A stretch of 64,000 nt of DNA from Anaerolinea sp. (GTDB lineage Bacteria > Chloroflexota > Anaerolineae > Anaerolineales > Anaerolineaceae). Both the position numbers and the translations under genes were made by a program. Each line of letters begins with the position of its first letter. Positions within the stretch are counted from its first letter, which is position 1. Positions 4,798-16,883 of this stretch are shown here, piece by piece. The notes beneath the pieces are model-generated. The model had not been told where the DNA came from. It worked only from the letters and a program-made list of their open reading frames with translations, and did not search any database. The stretch covers positions 1-64,000 of the forward strand of contig PNON01000007.1 of the NCBI GenBank assembly GCA_013824865.1, read 5' to 3'.

Positions 4798-5004
4798 CTA
4801 ACGCCCTTTACGTTTAGAACTGGCGTAGAACGCAGCGCCCAGGGTGCCTAAAATCATGCCAACCAGAGATGACCCATATGAGAAGAAATTCAGGAAGAAG
4901 GTGGACTCAACCACTTTAATCACCATCAGCAGCGGGAGGATCACTCCCATGAGCATCAGGCAGAAGGCAAGCCAGATCATCCTGGTGGGGGTCAGCCAAC
5001 TCAT
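4798..5004 (-). CDS. Small two-helix membrane protein
   Basis: A 68-residue protein with two hydrophobic segments (about residues 9-30 and 40-60) and a basic C-terminus SSKRKGR, so it is probably an inner-membrane hairpin with cytoplasmic tail. ATG 5004 overlaps the stop of the upstream ATPase gene by ATGA, which suggests coupled translation; an alternative start five codons upstream has no better ribosome site. It is the last gene of the ABC operon and ends just before the terminator. I do not recognise the family; a role in assembly or stability of the transporter is only a guess. Confidence 0.65.
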   Translation of the reverse strand: MSWLTPTRMIWLAFCLMLMGVILPLLMVIKVVESTFFLNFFSYGSSLVGMILGTLGAAFYASSKRKGR

Positions 5005-6044
5005 TTTAGCAACCAGCACTTCACCCTGTGGCCGGCTTCCGGCTCGAACTCTGGCGGTTCTTCAACTTCGCAGAGGCTCTGTATTACATGCGGGCAGCGC
5101 GGGTGGAAGCGACAACCAGCCGGCGGATTGACCAGGCTGGGCGGTTCTCCGGGGGGGACTTCCTTTTGGATGATGGCATTGTTGGCATCCGGATCGGAGG
5201 TGGCTTCGAGCAGGGCGAAAGTGTACGGGTGCTTGGTGTTTTGCAGCATCTGTTTCACATTCCCTCTTTCCACCACCTGACCAGCATACATCACGAAGAT
5301 CTGTTCAGAGAAATACCGTACTGTCGAGAGGTCATGAGTGATGTAGATCACACCAAGGTTATGTTTGTTCTGTAATCCACGCAACAGTTTTAATATTTCC
5401 ACACGCACCGAGGCATCCAGCATGGAAACTGGCTCATCCGCGATCAACAACTGTGGCTCCATGATCATGGCGCGGGCAATGACCACGCGCTGCTGCTGTC
5501 CGCCACTTAATTGATGCGGGAACTTGGCCATGAATTCCTCAGCCGGGCTCATTTTGACTTCTTCCAGCGCCTTTTTTACCCGGTTGAAACGTTCAGTTGC
5601 GTCCTTGACACCATTGATCTTCAACGGTTCTTCAAGAATGTTTTGAATATTCATAAACGGTGGCATGGCACCGTAAGGATCCTGTTGAACATAGCCAACA
5701 TGCGAACGATAGTTTTTTAGATCATTCGCTTTCAAGTTATTTATCGCCGCACCCTCAAACGATACTTCGCCTTTGGTTGGTCGGTTTAGCAGCAGTATGG
5801 TGCGCATCAAGCTGGTCTTCCCGCAGCCGCTTTCACCTACGATGGCAATGGTCTCATTATTTCTAAGGTTAAATGTGACGCCATCTACAGCGCGAACAAA
5901 ACCAGCGTGTCTGAACCCCCATTTCCGCATCTCGAACCAAACATGTAAATCGTTGATTTTAAGCAGCTGATCTCCTGCTGTTGACTTTCGATCTGCCTGT
6001 TTATGGGGCGCATTCCCTTGAGTGATTTTATTGATTGGTGTCAT
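5001..6044 (-). CDS. Oligopeptide/dipeptide-type ABC transporter ATP-binding protein (OppF/DppF-like)
   Basis: A 347-residue ATPase of an importer. Visible motifs: Walker A GESGCGKTS, Q-loop region, signature LSGGQQQRV, Walker B LLIADEP and the H-loop THD. The C-terminus carries the oligopeptide-family extension PPAGCRFHPRCP with further cysteines, which in this family can bind an iron-sulfur cluster. It would pair with the preceding ATPase to power the two permeases. The first 25 residues before the ABC domain are longer than usual and could be trimmed by a later start. Twelve nt separate it from the upstream ATPase gene; the downstream small membrane gene overlaps its stop. Confidence 0.9.
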   Translation of the reverse strand: MTPINKITQGNAPHKQADRKSTAGDQLLKINDLHVWFEMRKWGFRHAGFVRAVDGVTFNLRNNETIAIVGESGCGKTSLMRTILLLNRPTKGEVSFEGAAINNLKANDLKNYRSHVGYVQQDPYGAMPPFMNIQNILEEPLKINGVKDATERFNRVKKALEEVKMSPAEEFMAKFPHQLSGGQQQRVVIARAMIMEPQLLIADEPVSMLDASVRVEILKLLRGLQNKHNLGVIYITHDLSTVRYFSEQIFVMYAGQVVERGNVKQMLQNTKHPYTFALLEATSDPDANNAIIQKEVPPGEPPSLVNPPAGCRFHPRCPHVIQSLCEVEEPPEFEPEAGHRVKCWLLK

Positions 6045-6056
6045 TGTATGCTCCCA

Positions 6057-7016
6057 TTAAACATATAACCAACATTTGACCAGATCTTCGCCAATTATTA
6101 CTGTTGGCGGCTCATCTGCACATTTAGCAAAGCGGCGCGGGCAGCGGGCTGCAAAGCGGCACCCGGTGGGCGGGTTGATCAGACTGGGGGGCTGACCGGT
6201 AATAAAATCCGGCTCTGCAGTACCACGAAGTTTTGGAACGCTAGCCATGAGTTTGGCTGAGTAGGGATGGCGCGGCTCTTTGAAGAAATGGAAGGCATCG
6301 CTCACTTCCACGATCTGACCGGCATACATCACCGCCACCCTATCTGCCAGCTCGCTGGAGGTGGCAATATCGTGGGTGATCAGCACAAAGCTGGTAGCCA
6401 TCTCCGACTTGATGCGTTTAAGCAGGTTGAAGATATTAGCCTGGGTCAATACATCCAGCGCGGAAGTAGGCTCATCCAGCATGACCAACGCCGGGGCAGT
6501 CACCAGAGACATTGCCAGTGCAACACGTTGGCGCATCCCGCCGGAAAGCTCGAAAGCGTATCGGTTGATGAAATCCACCGGGACGCCGACATGCTGGAAC
6601 ATCTTGATGGCTTGCTGCATGGCTTCTTCTTTCTTAACGCCATAATGCACCATCATCGGTTCCGCCACCTGGTCGCCCACACGCAACACCGGGTTGAGCG
6701 AGTTCATGGCTGCCTGGGGAACCAGCGACATCTTGACCCAGCGGATCCTTTTGCGATAATCCTCGTCTTCAAGGGCCATGGTTTCAATGTCATCCAGGTA
6801 TACTTTGCCGGAGTATTGTTCCACGTTGCGGGGCAGCAGGCGCAGGACTGCTTTGGCGAGAGAAGTCTTGCCACAGCCGGATTCGCCGACCACGACTACT
6901 GCCTGGTTAGGCTTCAACTGGAAGTTGACGCCATCCACTGCCTGAACAGTCCCTTTCGTTGTCCTAAAGTGGAGCTTGAGATCTTGTATATCAAGTAAGT
7001 AATTATTCTCTGCCAT
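6057..7016 (-). CDS. Oligopeptide/dipeptide-type ABC transporter ATP-binding protein (OppD/DppD-like)
   Basis: A 319-residue ABC ATPase: Walker A GESGCGKTSLAK, signature LSGGMRQRV, Walker B LVMLDEPTSALD, and the C-terminal GCRFAARCPRRFAKC cysteine motif of the Opp/Dpp family. Partner of the following ATPase gene in a heterodimeric motor at the cytoplasmic face. It starts 3 nt after the OppC-like gene and is clearly in the same operon. Substrate class (peptide versus oligosaccharide) cannot be told from the ATPase. Confidence 0.92.
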   Translation of the reverse strand: MAENNYLLDIQDLKLHFRTTKGTVQAVDGVNFQLKPNQAVVVVGESGCGKTSLAKAVLRLLPRNVEQYSGKVYLDDIETMALEDEDYRKRIRWVKMSLVPQAAMNSLNPVLRVGDQVAEPMMVHYGVKKEEAMQQAIKMFQHVGVPVDFINRYAFELSGGMRQRVALAMSLVTAPALVMLDEPTSALDVLTQANIFNLLKRIKSEMATSFVLITHDIATSSELADRVAVMYAGQIVEVSDAFHFFKEPRHPYSAKLMASVPKLRGTAEPDFITGQPPSLINPPTGCRFAARCPRRFAKCADEPPTVIIGEDLVKCWLYV

Positions 7017-7019
7017 GGT

Positions 7020-8384
7020 CTACATACCTCTCAGTTTGGGGTTAAAGATTCGGTCGAGAGCAAAACCCAGCATGGCAAAGCCCAGGCCGGTAAACATCAA
7101 CAGCACAGCAGGCTCAAGGATCCAGTAATAGTAACCTTTATATAGTGCGCCATAAGTCTCTGCATCATTGATGATCTTACCCCAGGTGGGCAAAACCGGA
7201 TCGCCAAGTCCCAGCACAGCCAGTGAGGCTTCCAGGAATACATAGCCAGGAACAGCTGAAACGAGGGCAGGGATGAGGAGTGGGACGATGCGCGGGATGA
7301 GGTATTTAAAGATGATGCGCATGTCCGTCGCGCCATACGCACGAGCTGCTTCTATATAGGTTGATTCTTTCACTTGAAGGAAGATGGCGCGATCAGTTTT
7401 GATTGAGCCGGTGAAAATGCTGAGTAGGATCGTTACACCCAGGATAATCCAGATGCTACGCGAGTAGAATGTACCCACCATGATAAGGATGGCCAGGAAG
7501 GGGAGCACCAGGTTGATCTCGGTGATGCGCTGGATCAGCTCATCCAGCCAGCCGCCAAACCAGGCGCCAATGGCCGCGATGATCATGGAAAGCAGGGATG
7601 TGCCCAGCGCTGCCAGCAAACCGAAAGCCAAAGCAATTGGAGCTCCCCACAGCATGGCCACTGTTAAATCCCTTCTGGTGTGATCTGTGCCAAACCAACC
7701 AGCCACATTTCCATGAAAGACAAACTCAGCATCAATATCCGAATCCTTCTCGAAAGTAACGCCATTTATGATGAGCTTGTAAGTGCCTTTCAGCGGCGTA
7801 GCCGGGTCTGAAGCCGGGACTGCAAAAATCCCATCAACCGGGTGGATCATCTCGCGCTTCATGATGCGATTGATGCGCTTTGCAAATCTTTCATCTTGAG
7901 AGAAACGGTAGGTGTACTTTGTGCTGACGCCAAAATCACCAATTCTTAATTCAGTCCCATCCGGGGTGACCATCGTTACTGAAACAAAAGGTTGCTTTTG
8001 GTCATATTTTGAACTGAAGTACAGAAACAGTTCCGGTGGAAAAACATCATAGTCGAAGGGGAATTCGTATTCAAAATCAATATTGGAACTTCCATCTGCC
8101 TTTGTAGTGATGACTTTGCTAAACTCTTCGCCTACGCCAGCTTTTATTACAAATGATTCAGGCAGTTTTTTCTCACTGAACCAGTTGTACCAGATGGGTG
8201 GTGCATTCTTAGGGTTTTGGTACCAGACATCTTCACCGCCGCGCCACAGACGAATGGCTTCATTGTAAGGGATCTTGATCATCGCGTAGATTGCCAGTAT
8301 GACTAGCAGCATCACGACAATCGAGCCAAAAATAGCAGAGGGGTATCGCGATATTTCACGGAAAGTATTCTTAAGTATGTTCAT
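7020..8384 (-). CDS. ABC transporter permease (OppC/DppC-like) with a large extracytoplasmic insertion
   Basis: A 454-residue inner-membrane permease. The C-terminal 230 residues form a normal BPD_transp_1 domain with the EAA loop at EAARAYGATDMRIIFKYLIP. After the first membrane helix (about residues 17-35) there is an unusual hydrophilic insertion of roughly 190 residues before the permease core resumes at GTDHTRRDLTVAML. Ordinary OppC proteins are about 290-300 residues. The insertion should sit outside the membrane and may contact the likewise enlarged binding protein encoded by the same operon. It begins 2 nt after the other permease gene. Confidence 0.9.
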   Translation of the reverse strand: MNILKNTFREISRYPSAIFGSIVVMLLVILAIYAMIKIPYNEAIRLWRGGEDVWYQNPKNAPPIWYNWFSEKKLPESFVIKAGVGEEFSKVITTKADGSSNIDFEYEFPFDYDVFPPELFLYFSSKYDQKQPFVSVTMVTPDGTELRIGDFGVSTKYTYRFSQDERFAKRINRIMKREMIHPVDGIFAVPASDPATPLKGTYKLIINGVTFEKDSDIDAEFVFHGNVAGWFGTDHTRRDLTVAMLWGAPIALAFGLLAALGTSLLSMIIAAIGAWFGGWLDELIQRITEINLVLPFLAILIMVGTFYSRSIWIILGVTILLSIFTGSIKTDRAIFLQVKESTYIEAARAYGATDMRIIFKYLIPRIVPLLIPALVSAVPGYVFLEASLAVLGLGDPVLPTWGKIINDAETYGALYKGYYYWILEPAVLLMFTGLGFAMLGFALDRIFNPKLRGM

Positions 8385-9597: not shown

Positions 9598-12162
9598 TTA
9601 TTGGGTTACGAATTCAACAGCCGCAAAGGTGGGTTGGTTGACAACAGAAGGAACAACTGCAACTTCGAGCTTGTTGGAGCCAGCTGATAACTTGCCAGTG
9701 TCCTCGGCTGTCAGGGTGACGCTGTATTTACCTTCTTCTACCAGGGTGGCTTCAGTCACGAGGACGGTTGCACCAGTGGCATCGTAGAGCATCACCTTTA
9801 CATATTTAACATTGCTATCCAAATAGGGCTCGCCATTGAAGGTTACAAAAACATCAAAGGTGGCTTCCTGCCCAATGGTAACCTGTCCCGGGCCGTCTAC
9901 TTCAACTTCAGCAACCATGGGCACACCGAATGTTGCCCAACGGTCAGACAGGTCGGCGTAGTCAGCATTTTGCTTCAGGGTCAGGGTCTTCTCAGTCAGG
10001 AATACTTTATCAAGCACATATGGACCAGTGCCCATCCAGAAGTGATTGTGCTCAGCGTAGAATGCCTTCAGGTTGGCATAGCGGGCGGCAGCTTCTTCCG
10101 CGGTCAGGTAAGCGCCCATGGTGGGGGCGTACGGGATCAGGGATTCAGCAGCAGCAGCATCCAATTTTGCGGAAAGGATCTCGAGGGTGGGGCCGCCGAT
10201 GTAGCTGGTTTGTTCAATACCAGCGGGTTCAGCCTTGTCGATGGTGTAAGCGGATTCTCCTGCAGCTTCAGCCAGGTTGGCGATGGCAAATGTATGCCAG
10301 GAGGCTTCGCCGAGGTTCCACCAGGGCCAAATACCAGAACCGAGCAATTCAGCATCGGTCAGGAGGGCGTCGCTGTAGATTTCAACCACCAGCGGGTCGG
10401 TGGAAACGATCTTCCAACCCTTGAAGGTGAGCATGAAGGAATCAAACAGAGGGACAGCAGCCTCATCATAGATGGCACTCTCCGGTTTGGCGCGGTCAAA
10501 GGTCATGATCATGCTCATGATAGCATCAGCGAGGGAGAAGTTGGAGCCATCGTGCCACTTGACGGTCTCATACAGGTCAGCCGGATAGTAAGCGACAGTC
10601 TTGCGCTTGGCGGTCTGGCCTTCTGGGAACTTAGTATCAGCAGTGACGAAAGTCTGGGTTGTGGCATCCCAGTCAACCCATGCATCGCCGGGAACTTTGA
10701 TTTCGGGTGCAAAGGACAGGTTGACCCAGTCGAGCGTCTTGCCAACAGCACTACCTTCCTGGACAACGACATCCGCTTTTTCCATGCGCAGCGGCCAGGT
10801 GAGTCCGGTGTATGGATCGTACATGAGGTCAGCGCCCATGGTCATGCCGTAAGCACCATGATCAAATGTCCAGTTGGAGCCACCAATGGGGTTCCAGGGT
10901 TCAGCAAACAATTCCTGGGTAGCCCACTTCATGGTGCCACCTTCCTGGCCTTCAAAGCGCAGGGTGTACGGTCCGATCTGACCGGTTTCAACACCAGCAG
11001 CCAGGTCAGCAGTAGCAACTACATTTTTTTGATAGGGGATGAAACCTTTGCCGTCGATCAGGAACACCTGAAGGGAGTCCTCAAGAGAGAGTACCATGGC
11101 GCGTTTCATCATTTCTTTGCGCTCAGCCAGGTCTTTGTAATCTCCGGCATAGAGGCGGTCGCCCAATGTCTGGAATTCAGGATCAGGTACGTTGGAATAC
11201 CAGGCCGGGATTCCTTGCTGGCTGGAGGGCAGGTACATTTCCTGGAACGCGTTGGCTTCATCGCGGTCGATAATGGATGCTCCCCAGGCAGCGGTGTAGA
11301 CGTGCCACTGACCTTCTTCAGGTACGGAGCCGATCCAGATCGGGGAAGCTTCACCACTGGTCTTCAACTGGCGATCAACTGTGAAGCCGACAGCTTCAAA
11401 CTGGGAAGCGACATATTCGCCGATGGGAATACGGGTTTTGTCAGAGTCAGAGCGGATGATGAGGGTGAGGACAATGGGTGAGTCATTTTTATCATTCCAT
11501 TTTCCGTCAACCAGTTTGGCGCCCATACCTTCCATTTCAGCGGTGATGACTTCCTTGGCCTTGTCTAAGTTATAGGCGTATTTGGTTTCCAGGCTGCGGG
11601 CAACATCGATCAAGTCAACATAATCCGGACCCTGTGTCGTAATGGTGAACCACTTTGCCAGTCCGCCGCCTTCATATACTTCCTGGTTGATATAGTTGCG
11701 ATCAAACAACCAGTTAGTGGCTTCGCGGATCTTGCGGTTGCTGAAGGGGTTCAGCCTGCCATCAGCAAAGACAGCCGGGTTGTAGAGCATGTCGTAATAC
11801 AGGCCATTGTTGGTCGAGTATTTTACGCCAGCTTCTTTAATCGCGGGCAGGTCTTTGGAGGATAGGCCATTGGCATAAATATCAATGGCGCCTGCTTTTA
11901 ATTGGGTAAGAGCGGAGTCGGAATCCACCACAGAGAAGACGATTTCATCCAACCAGCCGCCCTTGCGGGTGGTTGGGACTGCTGTGGGTTCCGGTGGAAC
12001 CTCTGTAGGAGCAGGTGCTTCAACAACCGGTGCTTCAACAACCGGTGCTTCAACAACTGGTTCTTCAACAACCGGTGTTTCCACTTTGGGTTGGCAAGCA
12101 GCGAGTAACATGCTTGCGACAATGAGAAGTGCAACAACAAACATCAGTTTTTTCTTTAACAT
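9598..12162 (-). CDS. Family 5 ABC substrate-binding lipoprotein, apparently circularly permuted, with C-terminal Ig-like domain
   Basis: An 854-residue exported lipoprotein. The signal peptide ends in LLAAC (Cys23), followed by a VVEAP-repeat and Pro/Thr linker to about residue 66. The body carries SBP_bac_5 landmarks in inverted order. Residues 68-380 resemble the second half of the usual family: WLDEIVF, LKAGAIDIY, KIREATNWLFDR (144-155), DPEF (327-330), a late IPYQ. Residues 415-740 resemble the first half: WNPIGGSNW (423-431), KWHDGSNF (535-542), GTGPYVLDK (711-719) and a KQNADY element that normally leads directly into the LDEIVF segment. Residues about 752-854 form an Ig-like beta domain. 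AGGAGG precedes ATG. It is the first gene of the operon and should capture peptides or oligosaccharides at the cell surface. Confidence 0.88.
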   Translation of the reverse strand: MLKKKLMFVVALLIVASMLLAACQPKVETPVVEEPVVEAPVVEAPVVEAPAPTEVPPEPTAVPTTRKGGWLDEIVFSVVDSDSALTQLKAGAIDIYANGLSSKDLPAIKEAGVKYSTNNGLYYDMLYNPAVFADGRLNPFSNRKIREATNWLFDRNYINQEVYEGGGLAKWFTITTQGPDYVDLIDVARSLETKYAYNLDKAKEVITAEMEGMGAKLVDGKWNDKNDSPIVLTLIIRSDSDKTRIPIGEYVASQFEAVGFTVDRQLKTSGEASPIWIGSVPEEGQWHVYTAAWGASIIDRDEANAFQEMYLPSSQQGIPAWYSNVPDPEFQTLGDRLYAGDYKDLAERKEMMKRAMVLSLEDSLQVFLIDGKGFIPYQKNVVATADLAAGVETGQIGPYTLRFEGQEGGTMKWATQELFAEPWNPIGGSNWTFDHGAYGMTMGADLMYDPYTGLTWPLRMEKADVVVQEGSAVGKTLDWVNLSFAPEIKVPGDAWVDWDATTQTFVTADTKFPEGQTAKRKTVAYYPADLYETVKWHDGSNFSLADAIMSMIMTFDRAKPESAIYDEAAVPLFDSFMLTFKGWKIVSTDPLVVEIYSDALLTDAELLGSGIWPWWNLGEASWHTFAIANLAEAAGESAYTIDKAEPAGIEQTSYIGGPTLEILSAKLDAAAAESLIPYAPTMGAYLTAEEAAARYANLKAFYAEHNHFWMGTGPYVLDKVFLTEKTLTLKQNADYADLSDRWATFGVPMVAEVEVDGPGQVTIGQEATFDVFVTFNGEPYLDSNVKYVKVMLYDATGATVLVTEATLVEEGKYSVTLTAEDTGKLSAGSNKLEVAVVPSVVNQPTFAAVEFVTQ
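12014..12078. repeat. 15-bp tandem repeat in the lipoprotein linker
   Basis: Four to five near-identical 15-bp units (GGTGCTTCAACAACC on the plus strand) that encode the VVEAP repeats just after the lipoprotein signal peptide. The unit keeps the frame, so copy-number change would only alter linker length. Confidence 0.85.
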
Positions 12163-12757: not shown

Positions 12758-13549
12758 ATGAAAGCTGGTGTCAATCAATCTCGCAGTGCCAAACTTGTCA
12801 TTCTGATTTTGATTGCCATATTTACAGGATGCCAGAGTGATGTAACATCCCAGGTTGTTCTGGCGGAGAGTAAGGATGCTGAATTGCCTGCATCCACCCT
12901 GGTTGTTCCACCCGCAGCAGTGCTGACATCTGCACAGGTTAATCCACCAGCAGCAGCCACGGCAACAATAACCAGCACGCTGTCACCTTCCCTGACCCCA
13001 ACACCTGAGTTCACAGCAACCCAACTGCCAACCCTCACGCCTCAAGCGGCTCCGTTCTTTGATCGGTTTGTTGCAGCCATAATGAATGGAGATGCTACGA
13101 AAGTAGTAGGTGTTTACGTCGAAAATGTGCTAGCTTTAAAGGTAGTACAACAGCCCGCAAATAATCCAGCTTTTGTTTCCGGAGTGAGAGGTGTGGCCAC
13201 TTACTTTGCCATGGTGCGCAAACAAACAGGCAACACAGGATTGCTGGCTCATAACTACCTGGCGGGAATCTATTATTATGACTTGCAGCCCGGTCAGATC
13301 GTGGTTCTTATCTATGGCGATGGTCGGACAGAGGATTTCATTGTGGAAAACAGCGAGCAATTTCAAGCGTTGAACCCCACCAGCCCCACCAGCAGTTTTG
13401 TAAATGTAGTTACAGGTGAGAAATTATCCTCCACCTCCCTTTTTAAGCGGGTATATGGTGGTGGTTATAAAACCACCTTCCAAACTTGTATAGCCCAGGG
13501 CAAAGATGCATCCTGGGGAAGATTATTTGTTATCGCACCACAAGATTAA
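12758..13549 (+). CDS. Lipoprotein with a sortase-like domain
   Basis: A 263-residue exported lipoprotein: hydrophobic signal at 10-24 with lipobox FTGC (Cys25), then a Thr/Pro/Ala-rich linker to about residue 95. The C-terminal domain has the layout of a sortase: His165 in LAHNYLAG, a PGQIVVLIYGDG strand, Cys244 in TTFQTC, and Arg254 in WGRLFV, matching the His-Cys-Arg catalytic set (TLxTC then R). Sequence similarity to ordinary sortases is otherwise low, so activity is unproven. No LPxTG substrate was seen in the window. The next gene, starting 26 nt downstream, encodes a Wzz-like protein, so a role in cell-surface polymer or protein anchoring is plausible. Confidence 0.7.
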   Translation: MKAGVNQSRSAKLVILILIAIFTGCQSDVTSQVVLAESKDAELPASTLVVPPAAVLTSAQVNPPAAATATITSTLSPSLTPTPEFTATQLPTLTPQAAPFFDRFVAAIMNGDATKVVGVYVENVLALKVVQQPANNPAFVSGVRGVATYFAMVRKQTGNTGLLAHNYLAGIYYYDLQPGQIVVLIYGDGRTEDFIVENSEQFQALNPTSPTSSFVNVVTGEKLSSTSLFKRVYGGGYKTTFQTCIAQGKDASWGRLFVIAPQD

Positions 13550-13575
13550 TAGTTACGAGTTTTATAGGAGGCATT

Positions 13576-14667
13576 ATGGCAACAGCACGTTCAGGAGTAA
13601 AAGCCATCCAAAATGGTTGGCGTATATTGATCATATCCATTGCCGCAGGTTGTATCGCAGCCCTGTCATGGTCGCTGATAACCATTCCAATGTACCGGGC
13701 TTCTGCAACCTTTCTCGTATTTCCGAATGCAAACCTGACCAGCAGCCGGGATGTGGTCAGCAGCCTGGATACTTTGGAAGGGAAAACGGTCTCAACGACC
13801 TATGCAGATATCCTGGATAGCAACCGGGTGTACCAGGATACGATTGACCGGCTGCAATTGGATGAAGCAGCGCTTAAGAACATCCGGGTATATTCGGATG
13901 TACAAACGGATACCAACATACTGATCCTGTATGTGGAGGGGCCAAATCCGCAGCTCAATACGCTGCTGGCTAATAATATTGGTCAAAATGGCATCAGCTT
14001 TATTAAAAGCATTTACCAGGTATTCGATATCTCATTCCTGGATCTGGCATTGGAGCCAACCAAACCGTATCACCCAAATCCCTGGCTGTATACACTCATT
14101 GCCGCGGGTATCGGGTTGGTGAGCGGGCTGATCTTTTTACTGCTGAGAGAATCTTTGCGTGTGCCGCTGGAATTGCTCAAGGAACGCGCGCTCACAGACA
14201 AGCAATCGCAGGCTTACACCAGGAAACATATGGTGCGTACACTGGCTCAAGAATTGGTGAAGAAGGTGGATGAACCGCTTCCATTTGGTTTGATCCACTT
14301 AACAGGGTTGGAGGATCTCATTGATGGCTTGCCGGAAGGCATGATCGCCAAAGTTATGCAGGATGTTGTAAAACAGCTTCACCACATGCTGCGTGGAAAT
14401 GATCTGGTAGCTCGTTGGGATAAACTTGAATTCAGCGTGATGCTACCTTCCACTCCTGAAACACCAGCGATCAAGACCTTTGAGCGCCTGCTTCAATCGC
14501 TTGAACAACCACTGCAGGTAGATACCGGGGATTTGATCCAACTAGTCCCTGTGGAGGGGGTGGTTATCCGTCGGCCGGAAGATACGGTTGATACCATGAT
14601 CCAGCGCGTAGAAGAAGCATTGAATACCGCGCGCACTGGCCAGACAAAAATTGTGGTCTCGAAATGA
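13576..14667 (+). CDS. Wzz-like polysaccharide co-polymerase fused to a degenerate GGDEF domain
   Basis: A 363-residue inner-membrane protein. Helices at about 18-38 and 170-191 bracket a periplasmic domain typical of Wzz/chain-length determinant proteins (YRASATFLVFP after helix 1, P-x2-P-x4-P-rich PTKPYHPNPW before helix 2). The cytoplasmic residues 215-360 fold like a GGDEF domain but the signature is replaced by WDKLEF (281-286, followed by SVMLP), so it should not make c-di-GMP and may instead sense nucleotide or a partner. AGGAGG 13566-13571 fixes ATG 13576; a longer frame from 13486 lies inside the preceding gene. Its stop overlaps the upstream region of the BcsB-like gene, making an operon. 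Confidence 0.8.
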   Translation: MATARSGVKAIQNGWRILIISIAAGCIAALSWSLITIPMYRASATFLVFPNANLTSSRDVVSSLDTLEGKTVSTTYADILDSNRVYQDTIDRLQLDEAALKNIRVYSDVQTDTNILILYVEGPNPQLNTLLANNIGQNGISFIKSIYQVFDISFLDLALEPTKPYHPNPWLYTLIAAGIGLVSGLIFLLLRESLRVPLELLKERALTDKQSQAYTRKHMVRTLAQELVKKVDEPLPFGLIHLTGLEDLIDGLPEGMIAKVMQDVVKQLHHMLRGNDLVARWDKLEFSVMLPSTPETPAIKTFERLLQSLEQPLQVDTGDLIQLVPVEGVVIRRPEDTVDTMIQRVEEALNTARTGQTKIVVSK

Positions 14668-14681
14668 TCCGGGAGGATGAG

Positions 14682-16883
14682 ATGAACCCTAAATTCCTTA
14701 ACCGTATCTTCGTCACCCTGGCAGTGATAGCTCTCATTGTGGCTATTGGTACCACCGGTCAGGTGAACGCCGCGTTACCAACCGCAGATGCTGAGGCTGT
14801 CCAAGGTAAAAACCTTTCTGCCGGGCAGACTAATCTCACATTCTATGACTTGAATATGGATTTCCCGGTATCGCTGGATGGCCCCGTCTCTGATTTTTCG
14901 ATTAAATTTAATCCCGCTGGCAACTGGCTGCCAACGGGTACTGTCACCATGGATGTGCATATCTCCGCATTTTTTTCCAGCCTGGTGATGCCGGAAGATG
15001 CCGGCGCTGTTTCCGGCCTGGTGGGCGGGGATTTGAGTGTGTACCTTAATGATCAGTTGGTGCAGATCAGCACATTGCAGCAGAGCGGCGACCAGGTTAT
15101 CCACGTGGAATTTGATTCAGCACGATTGAAGGTGCCTTCCCGGGGGGGGATCAATGTGCTGCGATTTCGCTGGGACGGCACTGCATCCTGCAAGATGAAT
15201 TTACTCTCCAGCGTTGTAATTATGCCGGAGTCAACCCTGGCATTCTCCTACGTGGTGAGTGATGCAATTATTTCGCTAAACTCGTTCCCGGTGCCATTCA
15301 TCATAGAGGATTCGCTGCAGCCTGAGCCCTTAATGCTAGTGCTGCCAGACGCACCCAGTCTGGAAGAGCTGCGCGCAGCGTTGATTGTGGCTGCTGGAGT
15401 TGGCCAGTTCAGTGGTGGGACGCAGGATCTGCAGGTATTCCGGGTATCCGATTATGCCCCTGTGGGTAATAACCTGAACTTGATCGTCGTGGCTGATTTT
15501 AACTCTCGTAAATCGGAGAAGGTCCAGAAGCTGGGCAAAATGGTTGAAAATCAGATGAATGCAGGCGAAGGAGCGATCAGCCTTTTTGAGCCGAATATTG
15601 GTGGATTTGGCCTGCTGGTTACAGGTGATGGTGAAGGCATTATCAAAGCTGCCCAGGTATTCAGTGCCAACCAGGTGTTATCTTCAGGTGATTCAGAAAC
15701 AATGATCGTCAGCACGGTTAACCCACAGGTGAAAACATCCGGCGCAGAAGATACCACGCTGAGTGACCTGGGGGTCGGAGATATCCTGCTGACCCACACA
15801 GGAGGATTATCCCAATCTCTTGATTTCTATATCCCAGCCGGACGACAAGCCCGAGCGGATTCATACTTCGGACTGATCATCAGCCATTCACAGCAATTGG
15901 ATTATCTGAGTTCAGGTCTGCAGGTGAAATTAAATGGATCACCCACTGCCAGCATCCGGTTAAATGACAACACTTCAATTCAGAATCTGTTCCAACTGAT
16001 CCTCCCATCCAGCTTGATCCATGCTGGAAGAAATACCATCGAACTGACCGCTGTCCTGAATATGCTGGATATGTGCAGCGCGCCAGAGGCAGGAGTAGCC
16101 TGGTTGCGTGTATCCGCGGATTCATTGCTGCACATTCCACAGGAAGGAGCCGTGGCAAGCGCAGTGACTCCCAGAGAGTTTAAAGATTTTCCAACTTTAT
16201 TCCTGACAGGTTCCAGGCTCGATAACGTACTAATGGTCCTATCTCCCGAAGAGCCAGGTGCATTACAGGCTGCTGGTATGTTAGCTTTTCAGCTTGGGGC
16301 AGCCTTACCGCAGCCAGATATTGTTCAATTACGTGCTGCCTGGTCAGACGCCTATGATACAGATCAGCCAGAAGGTACAAATATCATCCTTATAGGCAAA
16401 CCTTCCTCCTTTGCGCAATTAGCTGAGAAAGATTACTTTCCCGCCATGACCTTCAACCCGGATAATAGATTGAGTCCGGCCAGCAGATTGGAAATTGTGT
16501 TGGATCCGGCTGTAGACACAAATATGGGGTATCTCGCGATTCGTGGTTTTACTGAAGGGACAAGTAGAGTCTTGCTGGCGGTTCTTGGTAATAACCAGGC
16601 AGGCATAAAATACGCGGTGGACGCGATCTCTTCCATGGAAGTGGCAGGTAGTAATTTTGCCATGGTGGTTGGGAAAGGGGTTCAGTCTAGCTGGCTGGAT
16701 CAAGGCATTGCCACCGGAAAAGTCGAAATTGCTGTAACCGAAGAAACTACTATCCCGGAAGTATCCAACGCTACCCGGGAATTTAAGACCGGATTGTTGA
16801 CATGGGCATTGCCGTTGATCATTTCCCTTTTGATTCTTGCCTTTACCATGGTGTTACTGGAAGCGAAGAAGAAAGCGAAATAA
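14682..16883 (+). CDS. BcsB-like cellulose synthase regulatory subunit
   Basis: A 733-residue exported protein: N-terminal signal/anchor (about 8-30), beta-rich BcsB-type carbohydrate-binding and flavodoxin-like segments (an SLDFYIPAGR strand, an LNDNTS turn, the CSAPEAGVAW element and RLDNVLMVLSPEEPG), and a C-terminal membrane helix at about 703-725 with a basic tail EAKKKAK. BcsB proteins sit in the periplasm and bind the synthase BcsA. No bcsA-type glycosyltransferase or PilZ gene is present in the window, so it is an orphan or pairs with a synthase elsewhere. GGGAGG 14671-14676 supports ATG 14682 over the in-frame ATG at 14664. Confidence 0.8.
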   Translation: MNPKFLNRIFVTLAVIALIVAIGTTGQVNAALPTADAEAVQGKNLSAGQTNLTFYDLNMDFPVSLDGPVSDFSIKFNPAGNWLPTGTVTMDVHISAFFSSLVMPEDAGAVSGLVGGDLSVYLNDQLVQISTLQQSGDQVIHVEFDSARLKVPSRGGINVLRFRWDGTASCKMNLLSSVVIMPESTLAFSYVVSDAIISLNSFPVPFIIEDSLQPEPLMLVLPDAPSLEELRAALIVAAGVGQFSGGTQDLQVFRVSDYAPVGNNLNLIVVADFNSRKSEKVQKLGKMVENQMNAGEGAISLFEPNIGGFGLLVTGDGEGIIKAAQVFSANQVLSSGDSETMIVSTVNPQVKTSGAEDTTLSDLGVGDILLTHTGGLSQSLDFYIPAGRQARADSYFGLIISHSQQLDYLSSGLQVKLNGSPTASIRLNDNTSIQNLFQLILPSSLIHAGRNTIELTAVLNMLDMCSAPEAGVAWLRVSADSLLHIPQEGAVASAVTPREFKDFPTLFLTGSRLDNVLMVLSPEEPGALQAAGMLAFQLGAALPQPDIVQLRAAWSDAYDTDQPEGTNIILIGKPSSFAQLAEKDYFPAMTFNPDNRLSPASRLEIVLDPAVDTNMGYLAIRGFTEGTSRVLLAVLGNNQAGIKYAVDAISSMEVAGSNFAMVVGKGVQSSWLDQGIATGKVEIAVTEETTIPEVSNATREFKTGLLTWALPLIISLLILAFTMVLLEAKKKAK

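Follow-up and report, generated by a model that had tools for sequence, protein, structure and literature searches.

A circularly permuted family-5 substrate-binding lipoprotein in an Anaerolinea Opp-type operon, and evidence for repeated permutation of its fold in Chloroflexota

Gene content of the locus

The 64,000-nucleotide stretch of Anaerolinea sp. DNA analysed here (the window) carries a minus-strand gene for an 854-residue substrate-binding protein (SBP), with four transporter genes next to it (Table 1). A lipobox, read by eye, occupies residues 20-23 and marks the product as a bacterial lipoprotein. The two permeases and two ATPases, the latter with oligo_HPY domains, make up one operon of the OppABCDF importer kind, and because all four genes lie downstream of the lipoprotein gene on the same strand, the lipoprotein is identified as the component that binds substrate for a full importer of the Opp type. 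Its family, its operon and its similarity to a solved oligopeptide-binding protein (PDB 7fi3, see below) all point to a role as an OppA-like peptide receptor, and peptides are most likely the substrate of the importer. The long form of OppC is also seen in related operons of types A and B (defined below), mostly at 445-514 aa. Beside the Opp operon, at 13486-16883 on the plus strand, a protein with Wzz-like and GGDEF parts is encoded directly next to a gene for a BcsB-like cellulose synthase subunit.

Table 1. Positions in the window of the permuted SBP gene, the parts of its product and the adjoining transporter genes
Feature	Position	Strand	Basis
OppF-type ATPase	5001..6044	-	PF00005 + PF08352
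OppD-type ATPase	6057..7016	-	PF00005 + PF08352
OppC-type permease, 454 aa, ~160 extra residues between first TM segment and core	7020..8384	-	PF00528 at 267-452
OppB-type permease, 376 aa	8387..9517	-	PF00528; Opp4B-like; sits beside type A/B SBP genes in almost every flank read
Type A circularly permuted SBP_bac_5 lipoprotein gene, 854 aa	9598..12162	-	ORF; PF00496 in two swapped stretches; 45 collinear homologues
Lipoprotein signal peptide, lipobox LAAC, Cys23	12094..12162	-	Sequence; retained in most type A members
Pro/Ala/Glu-rich tether after lipid cysteine, residues 24-67	11962..12093	-	Sequence
Canonical second half placed first, residues 68-404 (LDEIVF ... IPYQ ... LRFE)	10951..11961	-	Pfam profile 148-355; model match to 7fi3
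Canonical C-terminus/N-terminus join, residues ~400-410, LRFEGQEGG	10933..10965	-	Sequence; conservation in 45 members
Canonical first half placed second, residues 405-752 (WNPIGG, HDG, GTGPY, NADY)	9907..10950	-	Pfam profile 23-141; model match to 7fi3
C-terminal Ig-like domain, residues 753-854	9601..9906	-	FlgD_ig near cut-off; beta domain in model

The halves of the protein stand in swapped order

An earlier sequence-only reading of the window had proposed that the motifs normally late in this family come first in the protein and the normally early ones come last, ahead of an Ig-like tail. This order was borne out in full, with WLDEIVF at 70-76, LKAGAIDIY at 88-96, KIREATNWLFDR at 144-155, DPEF at 327-330 and IPYQ at 375-378, followed by WNPIGG at 423-428, KWHDG at 535-539, GTGPYVLDK at 711-719 and KQNADY at 730-735. 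The break points that it named, NADY on one side and LDEIVF on the other, are correct, and the tail is present from about residue 753, where FlgD_ig matches weakly (26.6 bits when the tail is scanned alone, slightly below the cut-off of 27) and the structure model has a beta domain (pLDDT ~85).

Scanned as a whole, the protein matches Pfam SBP_bac_5 (PF00496) at 100.3 bits (E=1.7e-28; curated cut-off of the family 32.4) in two stretches, profile positions 148-355 at residues 71-302 and positions 23-141 near residues 530-736. The same reading had predicted that each half scanned separately would hit the opposite half of the profile, and this is what was found: residues 60-400 matched positions 148-355 (86.9 bits) and residues 415-760 matched positions 23-141, at a score (23.9 bits) that is below the cut-off on its own, in the expected place. 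Each half maps once, giving neither a single collinear match nor two complete tandem domains. Since profile positions 148-355 precede 23-141, the protein is a permuted variant and not an ordinary member of the family.

A collinear match to the SBP_bac_5 profile failed in the native order and was obtained only after the sequence was rotated in silico. Likewise, a phmmer search of the PDB gave as its top match 7fi3, the OppA of Thermococcus kodakarensis, in two swapped pieces (31.7 and 33.4 bits), which rotation turned into a single collinear match of 66.5 bits over chain positions 65-569. In hhalign, a profile of the 45-member family described below scored 153 against 17 canonical SBPs in native order, in pieces of swapped order, and 190 once rotated, with one main piece spanning the new join. 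One rotation thus regains the canonical order both in the match to 7fi3 and in hhalign, as expected of a circularly permuted SBP. For residues 405-454, the assignment to the canonical N-terminus relies solely on their position and on a weak similarity (hhalign probability 0.6%). The swap is not a chance result, since 45 type A genes share it over their full length, and among 120 other SBP open reading frames of the loci examined none showed it with the canonical HMM.

AlphaFold models were built from 7 and 5 sequences and were poor overall (pLDDT 50 and 45, respectively), and we therefore used only the fold ranges of their better parts and did not take a missing match elsewhere as evidence. 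In these low-confidence models, residues 117-372, aligned apart from the other half, matched 7fi3 residues 401-721 (Z 21.4, 249 residues, 2.7 A), and residues 455-641 matched 7fi3 residues 73-231 (Z 8.5, 132 residues, 3.3 A), the next best chain reaching Z 4.1. Fold matches of the window protein model were to cluster C proteins throughout and not to the cluster B fold, and Pfam also assigns family 5. The swapped order itself is confirmed, and its reading as circular permutation of a family-5 SBP is supported by the HMM order, the rotation test, the profile-profile alignment and the fold comparison of each half.

Spread and variation of the window arrangement

With the window protein (P0001, whose arrangement we call type A) as query (E <= 1e-20), 38 of the 400 genomes sampled from Chloroflexota, several of them single-contig, gave relatives; most of these are full length, at 24-73% identity. 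A full-length alignment of 45 type A members shows one shared order, with the Ig tail present in most, and at the join R402 and G408 are at least 85% conserved among them. A search of a plasmid collection found no relatives. When a rotated query was run against 200 genomes, strong matches were to permuted genes only, the best canonical protein reaching E=2e-10, and in the tree the closest canonical relative known is 7fi3.

Transporter genes usually lie 3' of the SBP gene in the flanks read; at L003 they precede it, and none were seen beside L054. The latter locus holds a 1075-aa protein (L054:3978-7205, minus strand) whose type A part follows a metallopeptidase domain of matrixin type at the N-terminus (PF00413, HEIGHTLGLDD), so that one chain joins a peptidase and a lipoprotein that putatively binds peptides; it was considered as a duplication intermediate and rejected, the extra N-terminus being the peptidase. 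Within the canonical first half, near P0001 position 512, two type A genes of one genus (L055:5512-8406 and L056:5351-8248) have an insert of ~95 residues.

Anchor types also differ among type A members. Most have a lipobox, three (L045, L099, L100) have an N-terminal hydrophobic segment without the cysteine, and four distant members (L059, L060, L061, L063) have no lipobox and carry a C-terminal transmembrane segment, which places their anchor at the opposite end of the permuted chain.

Further cut points in the same fold

At least four cut points were found in this fold in Chloroflexota, one each for types A, B and D and one shared by types C, E and F. On a canonical model of 531-533 positions they fall at ~150 (D), ~233 (A), ~300 (C/E/F) and ~368 (B), the shared site being the loop that precedes the helix VRQA..DR.

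Type B (L003, L004, L057) starts, behind its own signal peptide, at the strand after DGKW (P0001 residue ~229). From there it crosses the join, continues with the canonical first half and stops at P0001 residue ~217. The OppB and OppC of its operons are 46-54% identical to those of the window, and the genome of L057 (G393) has a type A gene as well (L054). Within one transporter lineage, then, the cut site appears to have shifted from A to B with the kind of permease partner unchanged.

Type D has profile positions 62-365 followed by 2-56 in a single frame. A description of it as two genes, with positions 62-366 and then 1-56 in two different frames, was rejected, as the open reading frames show one frame. 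The genome of the window holds a type D gene as its second permuted gene (G000:C42:180-1859), with its own OppB, OppC, OppD and OppF. As counted from match rows, the type D homologue does not stop at the canonical C-terminus but reads on into the canonical N-terminus in 37 of 301 Chloroflexota genomes, that of the window included, whereas canonical proteins match the type D query only to residue ~432. Three type D genes (L097:4039-6666 on the minus strand, L107 and L129) have ~200-320 extra residues ahead of the SBP part, which could reflect start sites called too far upstream or else fused domains.

Type C (L095 and L176, 548-553 aa) was found in two genomes of a single genus and has profile positions 216-365 followed by 1-211; its canonical sister is 40-44% identical to it, and downstream of L095 come genes for OppB, OppC and an ATPase. 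Type E (L187 and L194; 682 aa) adjoins OppB and two ATPases, and is 42-43% identical across both halves to a canonical sister in the same locus. That locus (L194:1630-17572, G248) has four family-5 SBP genes, the permuted one and three canonical ones, interspersed with genes for Opp permeases and ATPases. Type F comprises L190, L191 and L192.

Outside the phylum, types A and B were seen among 120 Pseudomonadota genomes only in G401, a metagenome-assembled genome titled Rhodobacteraceae, where the contigs concerned measure 3.7 and 10.8 kb, and in G489, where the contig measures 35 kb. The presence of such genes in genomes assigned to Pseudomonadota (L188:8033-10618 on the minus strand, and L189) reflects either contamination or horizontal transfer. 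A type D search of the 120 genomes gave 57 matches in 27 genomes, all ending near the canonical C-terminus, and no permuted gene.

Independence of the events

Trees were built on rotated sequences; they are quick trees with some long branches. Type C groups with the canonical L137 (support 99), type E with the canonical L194_15557 and L209 (100), and type F forms one clade in a group with nine canonical proteins (100), while type D is one clade (100) inside canonical ones (95-96). Type A is a deep clade in which type B is nested at two places. The AU test rejects a single clade for B (p=3e-8) and for C, E and F together (p=4e-36). From these trees we estimate at least five to six independent permutation events in Chloroflexota, at four places. 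Type B may represent two gains or, alternatively, one gain plus a return to A.

In the tree 7fi3 falls with types A and B against the other canonical proteins (100), next to a remote type A lineage (support 96, on a long branch). With this placement, type A may have had one origin, two origins or a reversion. The type A permutation is old and widespread, and probably dates back to a common ancestor of many Chloroflexota.

Origin of the permuted chain

Taken as a whole, the best explanation, to which we assign a probability of about 0.95, is a permuted cluster C lipoprotein of an OppABCDF-type importer, within a fold that was permuted repeatedly in Chloroflexota. The window protein would keep the two-lobed family-5 (cluster C) fold, with a chain that begins at the canonical second half, finishes with the canonical first half and the Ig-like domain, and links the old C- and N-termini via few residues. 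With its binding mechanism presumably unchanged, it would work as an ordinary OppA, closing on its ligand, docking on OppB/OppC and releasing it. Permutation would then alter only where the chain starts and ends, and with these points the position of the lipid anchor moves.

Could the swap be an artifact, in which two truncated neighboring SBP genes were joined into a false frame by misassembly or annotation? The window genome is a draft in 57 contigs and relatives do have tandem SBP genes, yet the same full frame, lipobox included and free of internal stops, recurs at 41-73% identity in many genomes, some of one contig. Because independent genomes carry this frame, and because 38 of the 400 Chloroflexota genomes hold relatives, an assembly error is refuted and its chance is practically nil. 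A reading of the SBP gene as decayed or without function has nothing beyond the odd order in its favor, and with conservation across many genera, conserved motifs, an operon of its own and an intact lipobox against it, we regard decay as extremely improbable. A fusion of half-domains from two SBP lineages (domain shuffling), and not rotation of one gene, could account for the first half matching its profile more weakly than the second (23.9 versus 86.9 bits). However, 7fi3 is the best solved relative of both halves by sequence and by fold, one alignment spans the join after rotation, and for each of types C, D, E and F a single canonical sister matches both halves, which makes shuffling quite improbable.

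Given rotation of one gene, the likely route is duplication followed by trimming of the ends. Tandem intact type A copies exist (L053, 47% identical; L058, 52% identical), and these, with a type E gene near its canonical sister, are what this route would need. The type E join reads SKAAGAKNPTTFTY, and the canonical sister ends in SKGQ and resumes at AIKNPDTLVY after an Ala/Pro tether, a junction that would fit the C-terminus of a first copy running into a second copy minus its signal peptide. The same product could also have come from gene fission and refusion in reverse order, through a two-gene intermediate. No fused tandem duplicate intermediate was found among the genes examined, which favors fission; the intact tandem copies, and the fact that split halves were not seen as neighboring genes, speak against it, and we consider it unlikely, though still a route to keep in mind. 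Over the whole phylum, we tentatively suggest up to seven events (A, B twice, and C to F) in four loops, one of them used three times, each with a new export signal and mostly in an Opp operon; their recurrence would reflect selection on the site that the membrane anchor takes on the binding protein, in cells that fasten this protein to the membrane of the permease itself. This fuller account is possible, and we would not call it probable.

Relation to known systems and significance

The canonical members of SBP_bac_5 and cluster C (OppA, DppA, AppA, NikA) share with the window protein the Pfam family and the adjoining Opp-type permease and ATPase genes; they differ from it in that its halves are swapped, its canonical termini joined and an Ig-like tail added. 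The archaeal oligopeptide-binding protein 7fi3 has, like the window protein, a helical stretch ahead of G(T/Q)GPY, but its halves are in canonical order and its identity to the window protein is only ~18-24%.

A known example of natural circular permutation in an anchored ABC-importer binding protein is Tp0684 (MglB-2) of Treponema pallidum, a glucose-binding lipoprotein described as 'Type Ic / Cluster Bc', whose permuted relatives are widespread in some bacteria; its authors tie the permutation to membrane tethering, and domain shuffling had been raised for it (PMC4990184). Tp0684 differs in its cluster B (type I) fold, its one cut point and its sugar ligand, whereas the proteins studied here belong to cluster C, in which a single phylum shows several independent events at four cut points. 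Permutation is thus known in cluster B, and the surprising part here is its repeated independent origin in family 5; in a literature search limited to open papers, we found no report of a permuted family-5 or cluster C SBP.

To our knowledge, natural circular permutation is usually met as single ancient cases without a close unpermuted sister. In the present case, one fold in one phylum has several independent permutations, some of them recent (types C and E, with close canonical sisters), and consequently it becomes possible to test directly by which route they arose, which cut sites the fold allows and how the position of the anchor affects an ABC importer. The permuted genes are misread by HMM-based annotation, the window gene showing up as a partial SBP. 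They also reveal sites at which nature has permuted cluster C binding proteins, a class that serves in biosensor design, and recurrent re-cutting of the same fold amounts to a natural experiment in protein rewiring.
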